In this document: positions 1,647 through 33,782 of the stretch, one piece after another
Layout: every line of letters starts with the position of its first letter
How positions within the stretch are numbered: the first letter of the stretch is position 1
Origin: Methanosarcina sp. DH2
GTDB lineage: Archaea; Halobacteriota; Methanosarcinia; Methanosarcinales; Methanosarcinaceae
Reading direction: 5' to 3'
Length of the DNA: 44,326 nt
Assembly (NCBI RefSeq): GCF_020804225.1
Contig: NZ_WJBI01000004.1
Span: 243,175 to 287,500, forward strand
Translations under genes and position numbers: made by a program
Notes under the pieces: model-generated
What the model saw: the letters and a program-made list of their open reading frames with translations, nothing else
What the model was told of the DNA's origin: nothing
The model's database searches: none

Positions 1647-2666
1647 ATAAAAAGTAAACCTGATATTAAACCAAGACTTAAACAGAAAGACTTCAGAAAA
1701 GCCCCTATCTACATAGTTATTTCCTTACTGATACTTACCTTAGCTATCAGCCCCGTATTTGCGAATACATCAACCGTAGGTCCCGGACAGAACAATTCCG
1801 CAGGTATAGAGACTGAAAACCCAGCTGCAGAGGAAAAAGGGAGTTTCGGGAAAATCAAAATCATAACAATTCCAAACGGCTCTGAGATCTACATAAATGA
1901 AAAGGCTGCGGGAAAAACACCTGCCCTTATAGAAGGAGTACCGCCTGGTTTTTACGAGGTGGTGCTGAGGCAGGAGGGATATGATGATGTTTTTGCGCGG
2001 GTGTTTGTTAAAGCCGGGGAGACAACTTCAATCTCAAAAAAACTCCGTGTAAACGAGAGAGTATACAGCATTTCTTCAAGCCCCTCCGGAGCAAGTGTCT
2101 ACCTCGACGGAAAGTATAAAGGAGTGACTCCTGTCGTATTTCACGCAGCCGAAGGACAGTATAAACTAACTATAAAGAAGACCGGATACAGCGTGGTTTC
2201 AAAAGAGGTCGATGCCTCTGGGGAGACAGCAATTGTGCTGGAGGAAAAACTTCACCTCAGTCTCTTTACCTACTTTGTTGCAAGCCTGGTTCTGCTGGCT
2301 TCAGGCATTGTTATAAAAAGAAACCCCGAAAAGCTAAAGTTTAAATCCCCGAGAAAAACTCCGGCAGGCGGCAGGGGACTGGAAAAATTTCAGAGAGGAT
2401 CAGGGGAAAAAGATGAAAATTTGATGGTGAGGGAAGAAACCTCTTTTGCTGGCGAAAAAAAGAGTAAAACAGAAATCAGAAAAGAGAAAGCCGGAGATAA
2501 ATTAGAAGAAACAATCAGTGAAACAGACATAAAAGAAGATAAAAAACCAGTTTGGGAAAATGAAAAATTGCATGGGAAATCGTCAGTACCTGATAATCTG
2601 GTAGAACTGGAAAGCTTTTCGGAATCAAGTTTAGAGTACACACTAAAAAAGAAAAAGAAAGACTGA
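1647..2666 (+). CDS. PEGA-domain membrane protein with non-canonical or damaged start
   Basis: An open frame runs from a stop at 1593 to 2666. From the first possible residues it encodes a basic stretch, a hydrophobic segment (about residues 20-39, ending 'SPVFA', signal-peptide or anchor like), and a Thr/Asn-rich linker. Two PEGA repeats follow (about 63-110 and 130-180, with 'IPNGSEIYINEKAAGKTP' and 'SSPSGASVYLDGKYKGVTP'). A second membrane span (about 201-222) leads into a Lys/Glu-rich tail of about 110 residues. PEGA domains are surface beta modules, so the repeats should face outward and the tail the cytoplasm. There is no ATG, GTG or TTG between 1593 and the signal sequence. ATA at 1647, seven bases after AAGGGA, is my best guess at the start; the alternative is a frameshift. 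The first GTG (1959) would cut the first PEGA repeat. Confidence 0.7.
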   Translation: MKSKPDIKPRLKQKDFRKAPIYIVISLLILTLAISPVFANTSTVGPGQNNSAGIETENPAAEEKGSFGKIKIITIPNGSEIYINEKAAGKTPALIEGVPPGFYEVVLRQEGYDDVFARVFVKAGETTSISKKLRVNERVYSISSSPSGASVYLDGKYKGVTPVVFHAAEGQYKLTIKKTGYSVVSKEVDASGETAIVLEEKLHLSLFTYFVASLVLLASGIVIKRNPEKLKFKSPRKTPAGGRGLEKFQRGSGEKDENLMVREETSFAGEKKSKTEIRKEKAGDKLEETISETDIKEDKKPVWENEKLHGKSSVPDNLVELESFSESSLEYTLKKKKKD

Positions 2667-7099: not shown

Positions 7100-8716
<1,617 letters not shown>

Positions 8717-11265: not shown

Positions 11266-13806
11266 TTACTGGTATTTGTGTTCCCGCCTCTCTGCTACCA
11301 TGCGCTCTCTTTCTAGTCGTTCCCGCTTCTCTTTATCTGTCTCTGTCCTCTCCATCCTTTCTATTCGTTCTTTATCCTGCTGAGCCATTTTCTCTTCCGC
11401 AGTTTTTAGCTGTTCATGTTTCTCTCTTTCTGTCCGGGCCATTCTTTCTGGTTCTGTCTCAGCCTGCACCCCTGTCGAAATTTCTGCCTGCTCCACGACT
11501 ACTATCTGCCAGTAGGGCTGATATCCATAGTAAGTGTAGGTTCTGGAGAGTTCTTCACGGGTTAAAGGCCAGTTGCCCTTATCAAAGCCCTCTGCGTTTT
11601 CCAGGACATCCTTGGGAATATTAAGTACGAAAGCATGTTCGTGTACTCTCAATGAAAGGGACTGCCAGGGAATAGCAAACAGCTTATCGCTCATACCCAG
11701 GAATCCTCCAAATGAAAGTACAGCATATGCTACTCTTCCATCATGAAGGTCAATCATTAATTCTTCAATCTTCCCAAGATCCTCTCCAGCTGTATTGATA
11801 ACTTTGTCCCCTTTCATAGTGCCTGCTGACAAAAAGTCAGGACTTTCTCTGCTCGCCAGACCTTCTCTTCCGGATACTCTTTCTGATCCTATCTCTCCAG
11901 GCAATCCGGTTCGTTCGGTCACTTCTCTCTGCCAGTAAGGCTCGTATCCATAGTAAGTGTAGGTTCTGGAAAGCCACTCATGAGAAGTTACAGGCCAGTT
12001 ATCTTTATCAAAGCCCTCTGCCTTTTCAAGAGTTTCTTTAGGAATATCAAGCACGAAGGCATGATCATGAAGTTTCAGTCTAAGAGACTGCCAGGGAATA
12101 GCAAATAGTTTGTCTCCCATACCCAGGAATCCGCCAAAAGACAGTACTGCATATGCTATTCTTCCATCACGGAGGTCAATCATTAATTCTTCAATCTTCC
12201 CAAGATCCTCTCCAGATGTATTGACAACTTTATCCCCTTTTATCGTGGTTGCTGACAGAAAATCTGGGTTTTCTCTGCTTGCCATACCTCCCATCCGGGC
12301 CATCCTTGCCGATTCCGTCTCTTGCCACTTTTCTGCTTCCATACGCTCTCTTTCAAGCCGGGAAAGCCTTTCTTGCTCGGTCTCTACTTTCCTCTCAGCT
12401 TCCATACGCTCTCTTTCCAGCCGGGCAAGCCTCTCCTGTTCAGTCTCTACTTTCCTCTCAGCTTCCATACGCTCTCTTCCAAGCCCGGCAAGCTTCTCTT
12501 TCTCGGATTCTTCCCGTTTTTCAGCTTCCATACGCTCTCTTTCAAGCCGGGAAAGCTTCTCTTTCTCGACATCTTCTTGCCTTCCTACTCTTTCCCGTTC
12601 ACTTTCCAGCTGTGCCAGTCTCTCTCTCCGGGCCTCTTCCTGCATCTTTACTACATTCACCTCTTTTTCGAGCCTGGACACTTTTTCGGTCTCTTCTAGT
12701 CTAATGGCCTCCTGAAGCTCTTTCTCTAACCCTACCAGCTTCCCTCTCTCAATTTCCGCCTGCTTCTCTAATTCCATCTGCTCTCTTTCCAGCCTGGCCA
12801 ATCTCTCCCTCTCGGTTTCGGTCTGCCTCTCTCTCTGAATCCGTTGTTCTTCTAGATGGGATACCTTTTCTTCCTGTGTTTCTCTTAGCCCTTCAAGCCT
12901 TTCTCTTTCCATCCGGGCCTTTCTCTCTTCTTCAGTTCCTACCATTCCTGATTTTTCTCTTTCCAGCCGGGCCATTCTTTCTGCTTCTGTCTCACCCATG
13001 ATTCCTGTCGAAACTCCTGCCGCTGCCGCCGGTAGTGCCTGCCAGTAAGGCTCGTATCCATAGTAAGTGTAGGTTCTGGAGAGTTCCTCACGAGTTAAAG
13101 GCCAGTTGCCCTTATCAAAACCTTCTGCCTTATCAAAAGTTTCTTTAGGAATATTAAGTACGAAGGCGTGATCATGCACTCTCAAAGTAAGAGCCTGCCA
13201 GGGAATAGCAAACAATTTGCTACCTATACCCAGTATCCCACCATGTGAAAGTACAGCATATGCTACTTTTCCGTTTTCGAGATCAATCATTAATTCGTCA
13301 ATTTTCCCAACGTCATCTCCAGATGTATTGACAACTTTATCCCCTTTCATAGTGTCTGCTGACAAAAAGTCAGGATTTTCTCTGCTCGCCCGGGATACTC
13401 TTTTTGCTTCTGTCTCACCCCGTATTACAGTTTGTCCCGCCACTTCTGTCTGCCAGTAAGGCTGGTATCCATAATAAGTATAGTTTCTGGAAAGCCATTC
13501 ACGGCTGGTTACAGGCCAGTTATCCTTATCAAAGCCTTCTGCATTTTCAAGAGTTTCTTTAGGAACATCAAGTAAGAAGGCATGATCATGCAGTTTCAGT
13601 CTGAAAGCCTGCCAGGGAATAGCAAATAGTTTGTCCCCCATACCCAGGAATCCGCCAAAAGACAGTACTGCATATGCTATTCTTCCGTCATCGACGTCAA
13701 CCATTAATTCTTCAATCTTTCCAAGGTCCTCCCCAGCTGTATTGACGACCTTATCCCCTTTTATAGTGCTTGCTGATAAAAAATCTGGATTATTTTTATG
13801 TGCCAT
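11266..13806 (-). CDS. PRC-barrel / coiled-coil polyprotein
   Basis: The protein has 846 residues and four PRC-barrel domains in two types. Domains 1 (residues 6-119) and 3 (511-626) share 'KLHDHAF' and 'NWPVTS-x-EWLS'. Domains 2 (143-256) and 4 (653-767) share 'RVH-x-HAFVLNIPK' and 'NWPLTREELSRTYTYYGY'. Charged coiled coils follow each pair (about 272-505 and 783-846). The protein is thus two copies of an A-B-coil module. The first coil ends in four 21-residue repeats, which is three heptads each. There is no signal peptide or membrane span. PRC barrels bind partners in RNA maturation, photosystems and, in haloarchaea, FtsZ-associated division proteins. A cytoplasmic scaffold is a fair guess but unproven. 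GGGAG stands before the ATG at 13806. Repeat-rich length may vary between strains. Confidence 0.9.
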   Translation of the reverse strand: MAHKNNPDFLSASTIKGDKVVNTAGEDLGKIEELMVDVDDGRIAYAVLSFGGFLGMGDKLFAIPWQAFRLKLHDHAFLLDVPKETLENAEGFDKDNWPVTSREWLSRNYTYYGYQPYWQTEVAGQTVIRGETEAKRVSRASRENPDFLSADTMKGDKVVNTSGDDVGKIDELMIDLENGKVAYAVLSHGGILGIGSKLFAIPWQALTLRVHDHAFVLNIPKETFDKAEGFDKGNWPLTREELSRTYTYYGYEPYWQALPAAAAGVSTGIMGETEAERMARLEREKSGMVGTEEERKARMERERLEGLRETQEEKVSHLEEQRIQRERQTETERERLARLEREQMELEKQAEIERGKLVGLEKELQEAIRLEETEKVSRLEKEVNVVKMQEEARRERLAQLESERERVGRQEDVEKEKLSRLERERMEAEKREESEKEKLAGLGRERMEAERKVETEQERLARLERERMEAERKVETEQERLSRLERERMEAEKWQETESARMARMGGMASRENPDFLSATTIKGDKVVNTSGEDLGKIEELMIDLRDGRIAYAVLSFGGFLGMGDKLFAIPWQSLRLKLHDHAFVLDIPKETLEKAEGFDKDNWPVTSHEWLSRTYTYYGYEPYWQREVTERTGLPGEIGSERVSGREGLASRESPDFLSAGTMKGDKVINTAGEDLGKIEELMIDLHDGRVAYAVLSFGGFLGMSDKLFAIPWQSLSLRVHEHAFVLNIPKDVLENAEGFDKGNWPLTREELSRTYTYYGYQPYWQIVVVEQAEISTGVQAETEPERMARTEREKHEQLKTAEEKMAQQDKERIERMERTETDKEKRERLERERMVAERREHKYQ
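12304..12555 (-). repeat. Four 63-bp in-frame tandem repeats coding for coiled coil
   Basis: Each unit encodes 21 residues around 'LERERMEAE' (protein residues 418-501). The two middle units are nearly identical at the DNA level. Since 63 bp is three heptads, copy-number change would lengthen the coil without breaking frame or register. Confidence 0.85.
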
Positions 13807-32131: not shown

Positions 32132-32203
32132 AGCCGCCGGAGGGATTTGAACCCTCGGCCTGCTGATTACGAATCAGCCGCTATACCGCTAAGCCACGAC
32201 GGC
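32132..32203 (-). tRNA. tRNA-Thr (anticodon CGU)
   Basis: A 72-base cloverleaf. The acceptor stem GCCGTCG/CGGCGGC has seven pairs including one G-U. The D arm is AGCGGTATAGC-like, the anticodon stem GCTGA/TCAGC holds the loop TTCGTAA, and the T arm GAGGG/CCCTC has loop TTCAAAT. Anticodon CGT reads the Thr codon ACG. CCA is not encoded. No intron. Confidence 0.97.
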
Positions 32204-32355
32204 ACATGGATTGGGATAAGCAGACTTAAAAGAGCGATTAAGAATTTAACTATTTCGCTCGTAAGGGCTGTTTCCTTCCTGCAAAGCGTGAGATAAAAGA
32301 GAAGGAAAAAATAAACTGCCAGTAAATTTCTTACTCTTCAGTTTTATTTAACTTA

Positions 32356-32454
32356 TTATTTCTCTCTTTTCTTAAAGTATCTGAGGTAGAACCATATAAA
32401 TATGAGAGCAATCAAAATTGAGAAGCCTATCATGAAATAGGTAAGTGTGGACAT
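32356..32454 (-). CDS. 32-residue single-span membrane protein
   Basis: The frame begins with ATG at 32454, ten bases after GGAG, and reads 'MSTLTYFMIGFSILIALIFI' (residues 1-20) then 'WFYLRYFKKREK'. One helix of about 20 hydrophobic residues is followed by a short positively charged end, predicting N-out/C-in orientation by the positive-inside rule. TTATAATT about 25 bases before the ATG could be its TATA box. It stands between the tRNA and trm5 genes. Such bitopic miniproteins often stabilise or regulate larger membrane complexes; no partner is evident here. Confidence 0.65.
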   Translation of the reverse strand: MSTLTYFMIGFSILIALIFIWFYLRYFKKREK

Positions 32455-32771
32455 CTGAAATCAGCTCCTTGCAGAATTATAACTAATAACCTGTAATTAA
32501 GCAGTTTTAAGCTTCTTTTAACCCCAGTATTACAATTCCTACATCATAAATTCAAGAGCATTACTTCAACCATCAGCCCTTTACAGAAATTAACCTGCAA
32601 ATGTTTAAACATTTTCTTTTACGCAGGCCTCTGATTTTTTGATCATATTATTCTCTCTCTTCGTCTGCAGAGGAGTTTTTTACTGGCACACCCTGGCTGC
32701 CCTTATAGGTCAGCTGGCAGAGAGATTTCCATATTCCGAACCTTCACAGGAGCTTGCGGCAGACAGAAGCC
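32455..32771. other. Gap between small membrane protein and trm5
   Basis: AT-rich spacer. An open frame on the plus strand across this gap overlaps the 3' end of trm5 on the other strand and has no ribosome binding site, so I do not accept it. Confidence 0.4.
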
Positions 32772-33782
32772 TCAAATTACCTTTGCCTCGATACATATGT
32801 TATATTGATGAGGAGCATATGAACGGACTACCCTTTTCTCCAGAATTTCGACTTGCTTTCCTGCTTTTCCTGCAGCTTTTCGGATAAGTTCGACGGAACT
32901 TTTGAAGAGGTCATCCTCATGAGTCATTCCGTAATAGTGGATTATTCCACCCGGTTTTGTAAGGAGGACAGCAGAGTCAAGGAATTCGTGGGCACTGTGA
33001 GGGAGGTTCATGATCACATGGTCGGCAGTTCCTGCAAACCTTTTTGCTTCTTCCCTGGCATCGCCTTCGATTGCTTCAATGTTTTTTGCGGAATTAAGGG
33101 AAATGTTTTCTCTCAGGTAATGCACTGCGTCAGGGTTTTTGTCGATTGCTATAACCCTTGAAGGTTTTTTGCTCTTTGCAAGCAGGATACTGTAAGGACC
33201 GACACCGGCAAACATATCGACAACAGTATCACCTTCCTTAACCCAGGAGAGAATTCTTGAGCGTTCCGTAGAGAGGCGGGGGGTAAAATAAGCTCTTGCA
33301 AGGTCAACTTTGTAGCGGCAGCCGTACTCCCTGTGGACCGTTTCTGTTCTGGGCTCGCCTGCAATTATCTCGAATTCCCTTATCCTGAATTCTCCTATGA
33401 CAGGAGTAAGAGGTTTGACCACGGATTTTATATTTGGCTGGGTCCGGAGGAGGACGTCGGCGATCTTTAAGGCTGTTTGCGCATCCAGGTTCTCGTCTTC
33501 CAGAAGGGCGATGTCTCCTATGACTTCGTATGCAGGGCTGAAACCTAGCAGGTCTTCAGGAACAGGCTTTTTTTCCATGGGCTCGAAATCAAAATCCGTA
33601 AGTTCGGAACCTTCCGGTAGGCTCTCGAACTCCTCAGGGACGAGCTCCCTGGAGAGGGGAAGATAAAGGAAGATTTCATCCGAACCTATCTTCAAGGAAT
33701 TATCAAGAATTTCAAGACCAAGGAGAACTCTTCTTGCAGGTTCTCCTTTCTTTTTAGGTACTTTTATGCACTGCCTTCTCAT
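32772..33782 (-). CDS. trm5: tRNA (guanine-37-N1)-methyltransferase Trm5
   Basis: The protein has 336 residues. An N-terminal domain (about 1-80) and a tRNA-binding middle ('YKVDLARAYFTPRLSTERSR') precede the Rossmann methyltransferase with 'VVDMFAGVGPYSILLA' for S-adenosylmethionine, 'VIAIDKNPDAVHYLRENI' and the catalytic 'NLPHSAHEFLD'. It makes m1G37 next to the anticodon, which prevents +1 frameshifting, and is a precursor step to wyosine in archaea. Length and the compact N-terminus fit the archaeal Trm5 form, probably aTrm5b. AAGG lies before the ATG at 33782. The C-terminal end 'SYAPHQYNICIEAKVI' is typical. Confidence 0.94.
   Translation of the reverse strand: MRRQCIKVPKKKGEPARRVLLGLEILDNSLKIGSDEIFLYLPLSRELVPEEFESLPEGSELTDFDFEPMEKKPVPEDLLGFSPAYEVIGDIALLEDENLDAQTALKIADVLLRTQPNIKSVVKPLTPVIGEFRIREFEIIAGEPRTETVHREYGCRYKVDLARAYFTPRLSTERSRILSWVKEGDTVVDMFAGVGPYSILLAKSKKPSRVIAIDKNPDAVHYLRENISLNSAKNIEAIEGDAREEAKRFAGTADHVIMNLPHSAHEFLDSAVLLTKPGGIIHYYGMTHEDDLFKSSVELIRKAAGKAGKQVEILEKRVVRSYAPHQYNICIEAKVI

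Follow-up and report, generated by a model that had tools for sequence, protein, structure and literature searches.

The 44,326-bp stretch of the Methanosarcina sp. DH2 genome analyzed here (referred to as the window) carries, on the minus strand at positions 32356 to 32454, an open reading frame (ORF) for a 32-residue single-span membrane protein (MSTLTYFMIGFSILIALIFIWFYLRYFKKREK, followed by the stop codon), here called the miniprotein and recognized by its orthologs, its dN/dS ratio, and helix prediction. The ORF begins with an ATG at 32454 to 32452 and ends with a TAA at 32358 to 32356. A preliminary description of this DNA had given exactly these coordinates and left the strand unstated. 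It had also reported an ATG preceded by GGAG at good spacing, and this motif is indeed found at 32468 to 32465 (−14 to −11). GGAG lies within the ribosome-binding site AGGAGCTGAT (32460 to 32469, minus strand), 5 nt ahead of the ATG, which matches the full archaeal Shine-Dalgarno core, AGGAGGTGAT (the sequence that usually complements the 3′ end of 16S rRNA), at all but one position; in six other Methanosarcina, the site reads GGGAGCTG(A/G)TTT. The TATA-like box noted in front of the gene exists as well (TATAATT, 32475 to 32481, minus strand) and is variable in relatives. Under archaeal promoter rules, however, transcription directed by a box only 21 to 27 nt from the ATG would begin close to that codon and leave out the ribosome-binding site, which makes this box an improbable promoter. 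A putative upstream element (GCTTAAAACTGCTTAATTAC, 32493 to 32512, minus strand), partly conserved in close relatives, is tentatively a better candidate. Two constant synteny markers, both on the minus strand, flank the gene: upstream, a trm5-type tRNA (guanine37) methyltransferase gene (32772 to 33782), named from reading its sequence, and downstream, a tRNA-Thr(CGT) gene (32132 to 32203). The ~46 bp upstream of the tRNA gene (32216 to 32261), which contain GAGCGA-N17-TCGCTC, are 76 to 94% conserved across nearly all Methanosarcina, with or without the miniprotein; this block is probably the tRNA promoter, though longer than the usual one.

The miniprotein consists of a single hydrophobic helix, with a Kyte-Doolittle 17-residue maximum of 2.5, and AlphaFold2 predicts one helix spanning residues 3 to 31 (mean pLDDT, 88). 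The N terminus is uncharged, while the C-terminal tail, RYFKKREK, is basic. The clean hydrophobic helix and basic C-terminal end described earlier are thus borne out, and the prediction is that of a bitopic miniprotein, with one membrane-spanning helix and a charged flank, which by the positive-inside rule would sit with its N terminus outside and its C terminus inside the cell (N-out/C-in). As a control for chance, we counted hydrophobic ORFs of 20 to 60 aa with a Shine-Dalgarno sequence. The whole window contains 2, compared with a mean of 0.7 in shuffled sequences, and the second of them belongs to a larger gene, as its C-terminal tail. Judged by form alone, the ORF stands only modestly above shuffled sequence and could have arisen by chance.

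Searching 238 genomes of the class with a profile identified 14 clear orthologs, 8 in Methanosarcina, 2 in genus g2, and 4 in genus g21. Named public records with an ortholog include Methanosarcina sp. 2.H.T.1A.6, Methanosarcina sp. KYL-1, and Methanosarcinaceae metagenome-assembled genomes, and M. acetivorans appears to carry one (genome G014). By its mmcA-rnf gene order, G014 is probably strain C2A; its ortholog, on contig 1 at about 719310 to 719402, starts with GTG and is 29 aa long. Orthologs in the three genera keep the frame, the start, a strong ribosome-binding site, and the membrane helix, and their length is nearly constant (29 to 32 residues). Every ortholog with visible flanks lies between the trm5-type methyltransferase and tRNA-Thr(CGT) genes, two contigs being cut or masked on one side. 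Across 13 sequences, residues M1, Y6, F19, W21, and K29 are invariant, and S2, T3, L17, I18, Y23, and Y26 are nearly so. In comparisons with six close relatives, DNA identity is 76 to 90% in the ORF versus 45 to 66% in the region 20 to 300 bp upstream, and it ranges from 40 to 79% in the 60 bp downstream. Codon changes are more frequent at third than at second positions, and dN/dS is ~0.2 to 0.4 in most close pairs, a rough estimate from few sites. Both comparative checks suggested in the preliminary description, frame conservation in related genomes and the synonymous/nonsynonymous ratio, therefore came out in favor of the gene. Frame, start, and stop are conserved and purifying selection is evident, as in protein-coding small ORFs, and together with the cross-genus conservation and synteny this strongly supports a genuine short gene, probably overlooked by gene calling, that encodes a bitopic membrane protein; we are nearly certain that the gene is real. 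The contrary reading, that the frame is open by chance or only incidentally within a conserved RNA or promoter, could appeal to the very short ORF and to a form not far above chance, but it is highly improbable. Conservation in three genera excludes a chance ORF, and the same start, near-constant length, and codon-pattern conservation, the dN/dS well below 1, and the conserved Shine-Dalgarno sequence amid less conserved flanks all argue for coding. In an Rfam search, the neighboring tRNA was the sole match, with no RNA family at the ORF.

Searches of Pfam and NCBIfam returned no family above the cutoff for the miniprotein, no PDB chain matched it convincingly, and a text search of the literature with the peptide sequence found no paper. 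A match to Photosystem I subunit IX (E value, 0.016) covered the helix only and was rejected. The resemblance to FixS/CcoS (PF03597) was likewise confined to the helix (3 of 4 members scanned; E values, 0.02 to 0.07), with a score of 15.1 bits against a curated cutoff of 23.1 bits. The small membrane-linked Methanosarcina proteins MtrI, MtrR, and sORF_05 were also set aside, as their sizes or contexts differ. MtrI and MtrR of Methanosarcina mazei are small ORF products that act on a membrane energy-conserving complex, but they are 68 and 49 aa long, both act on Mtr, and MtrI, a helical protein with a zinc ribbon, lies on the cytosolic face; the miniprotein differs from them in length, fold, and sequence. 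sORF_05 of M. mazei is an unannotated hydrophobic helical small membrane protein, but it sits in a methylamine permease operon and not beside tRNA-Thr.

We compared the distribution of the gene with that of membrane energy systems across 34 genomes; G009, G011, and G017 were excluded because of their low completeness (60 to 75%). MmcA, the heptaheme cytochrome whose gene heads the rnf operon, was found in all 14 genomes with the miniprotein and in 0 of the 20 without it. MrpE (PF01899) of the Mrp multisubunit Na+/H+ antiporter shows exactly the same pattern (14/34). CcmC/CcmF (PF01578) is present in 14/14 genomes with the miniprotein and in 1/20 without it; the exception, G008, has retained its cytochrome c maturation genes without MmcA, Mrp, or the miniprotein. 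The excluded genome G011 (60% complete, trm5 not found) contains MrpE and neither MmcA nor the miniprotein, and it is uninformative. On a trm5 tree, the miniprotein occurs in deep branches (g2, g21, and G026) and is absent at three places in Methanosarcina, namely, G008, the pair G005/G006, and a clade of 17 genomes; no gene remnants were detectable in the intergenic regions of genomes lacking it. The gene was therefore present in the ancestor of the three Methanosarcinaceae genera and was lost at least three times within Methanosarcina, each time coinciding with the absence of MmcA and the Mrp antiporter. By tree-aware pair tests there are only 2 to 3 independent losses or contrasts, a number with which a sign test cannot reach significance. 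As a control, 25 window genes of ≥150 aa (window positions 1 to 40000) were followed by two DNA searches in eight genomes, half of them carrying the miniprotein. None of the 25 was present in all four carriers and absent from all four noncarriers, so the pattern is uncommon, although the control is small and significance cannot be claimed from it. The nearest to this pattern was the gene at 1959 to 2666 (plus strand) for a PEGA-like repeat membrane protein, which is found at least in part in 3/4 Type II and 0/4 Type I genomes and is possibly a further Type II-biased gene.

The Type II/Type I division is known from the literature. MmcA is found in every Type II species but in none of Type I (PMC12369344), and Rnf occurs in 8 of 31 Methanosarcina (PMC12918732), the same number as the Methanosarcina with a miniprotein here. 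In our genomes, the Mrp antiporter (G000:C31:34904-35362) and MmcA (G000:C28:220828-222327) are missing from an identical set of Methanosarcina, which separates Type I cleanly from Type II. M. mazei Go1 has one multiheme cytochrome and no MmcA (PMC12369344), and we infer that G008 is M. mazei-like, which fits Go1 in lacking MmcA. Because Go1 is listed without MmcA and the Ccm-only genome G008 also lacks the ORF, M. mazei, the species with Ribo-seq data, probably does not have the miniprotein gene.

Beyond this clade the association does not extend. MmcA is present in 91/238 genomes of the class, in 16 genera, versus three genera for the miniprotein, which is therefore not generally required; MrpE is present in 129/238, mostly without a recognizable miniprotein, and no miniprotein homolog was found beside mmcA-rnf in ten genomes of other genera. 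The miniprotein is a clade-specific addition and not a universal part.

The earlier remark that transporters or respiratory complexes are often regulated by bitopic miniproteins was a general one, but the phylogenetic profile leads in the same direction, toward MmcA-Rnf and Mrp. The profile suggests that the miniprotein may help this cytochrome-linked, sodium-pumping machinery work, and given the observed co-inheritance, its function probably lies within the Type II (MmcA-Rnf/Mrp) energy module, though by no wide margin of confidence. Our preferred reading, to which we assign a probability of roughly 0.4, is that the sodium-translocating MmcA-Rnf complex contains it as a small accessory subunit. 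Although no transmembrane domain can be identified in MmcA, it fractionates with the membrane, and membrane proteins of Rnf have been proposed as its tether (PMC11024163). A protein that spans the membrane once, is oriented N-out/C-in, and is strictly co-inherited with MmcA-Rnf makes a natural candidate for a docking or stabilizing subunit. The miniprotein would sit N-out/C-in as a small accessory subunit or tether, its conserved aromatic residues (Y6, F19, W21, F22/Y, and Y23) could pack against Rnf membrane helices, and it may thereby help dock or stabilize the extracytoplasmic cytochrome. We propose that such docking would resemble the anchoring of cytochromes by TorE/NapE or the service of CcmD to CcmABC. 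TorE and NapE are bitopic small proteins that strengthen the membrane anchoring of a c-type cytochrome (PMC6134056), but they are bacterial and belong to other respiratory systems, the miniprotein has no Pfam match to them, and its anchoring of MmcA is putative. Within the clade, inheritance with MmcA is strict in our data (14/14 versus 0/20), the Rnf distribution being taken from the literature. The gene is not part of the rnf operon, from which it lies ~53 kb away in this genome, and database searches gave no match of its product to an Rnf subunit. The fullest version of the proposal, in which a pump subunit encoded far from its operon tethers the heptaheme cytochrome and marks all Rnf-type (Type II) Methanosarcina, is more doubtful. 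A search of the PDB with the MmcA sequence returned no MmcA structure. We also asked whether the miniprotein replaces a C-terminal MmcA helix of other genera and rejected this idea, as 15/15 MmcA proteins have only an N-terminal signal-like helix.

The main rival assigns the miniprotein, as a small accessory subunit or regulator, to the Mrp antiporter or another Type II Methanosarcina membrane enzyme. Several very small membrane subunits are already part of Mrp complexes, and because the MrpE pattern is identical (14/34), the profile does not single out MmcA-Rnf; Mrp, tried as a discriminating control, gave no discrimination. We nevertheless consider this role unlikely, since Mrp occurs so widely in the class, mostly without the miniprotein, and the gene shows no linkage to mrp (G000:C31 versus C28). 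A role unrelated to either complex (stress, lipid, or transporter regulation) is less probable than the MmcA-Rnf subunit but better placed than an Mrp partner. On this account, a genuine small membrane protein was lost along with MmcA and Mrp as Type I lineages shed many genes. The gene stands alone with no operon context, the independent losses are few, and Type I and Type II lineages also differ in surface and ecology (PMC12369344), but the distributions agree exactly in all 34 genomes, three separate losses included, and no window gene shows the same pattern.

The least probable of these roles is that of an archaeal substitute for CcmD, assisting the heme-handling complex CcmABC as a single-span N-out/C-in protein. 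CcmD is missing from archaea, an acknowledged puzzle, and whether a nonorthologous protein replaced it has been left open (PMC9084895). CcmD has one helix, an outside N terminus, and a cytoplasmic tail (PMC10457321), which is the small, N-out/C-in form that the positive-inside rule would give the miniprotein, and the two-way association with CcmC/F described above has a single exception. At the ccmABC and ccmF loci, moreover, no other small ORF is both conserved and hydrophobic, except for a low-complexity antisense frame. However, the miniprotein is half the length of CcmD, is not encoded with or near ccmC, and with four members searched at E values up to 10 does not match the CcmD Pfam model. 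In M. barkeri, which has no ccm genes, the M. acetivorans genes ccmABCEF1F2 together with mmcA suffice to yield holo-MmcA (PMC9084895). Among the genomes compared here, no Methanosarcina lacking ccm has the miniprotein, so the host was of a type without the gene, and heme attachment there did not need it. Because G008 also keeps Ccm without the miniprotein, a CcmD-like role would be auxiliary at most.

Type II Methanosarcina use MmcA-Rnf to live on acetate and to exchange electrons with minerals and partner cells. What is new here is that the distribution of the miniprotein tracks MmcA and Mrp. If the MmcA-Rnf subunit reading is true, a missing 32-residue component would explain a gene kept and lost with the MmcA-Rnf module, and the miniprotein would need to be included in reconstitution and structural work on the complex. 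Its role is easy to test in M. acetivorans, which is genetically tractable. More broadly, tiny ORFs can be assigned to energy modules by phylogenetic profiling.

Three other features of the window were recorded. A GroEL-type chaperonin is encoded in this archaeal genome at 7100 to 8710 (minus strand) and is conserved in 8/8 Methanosarcina tested. The gene at 11266 to 13806 (minus strand) encodes an 846-aa protein that, from its sequence, has four PRC-barrel-like repeats around a Glu/Arg-rich coiled region. Positions 137 to 432 contain dispersed repeats (~50 to 180 bp) that occur in many copies in several Methanosarcina genomes, with the most in G028.
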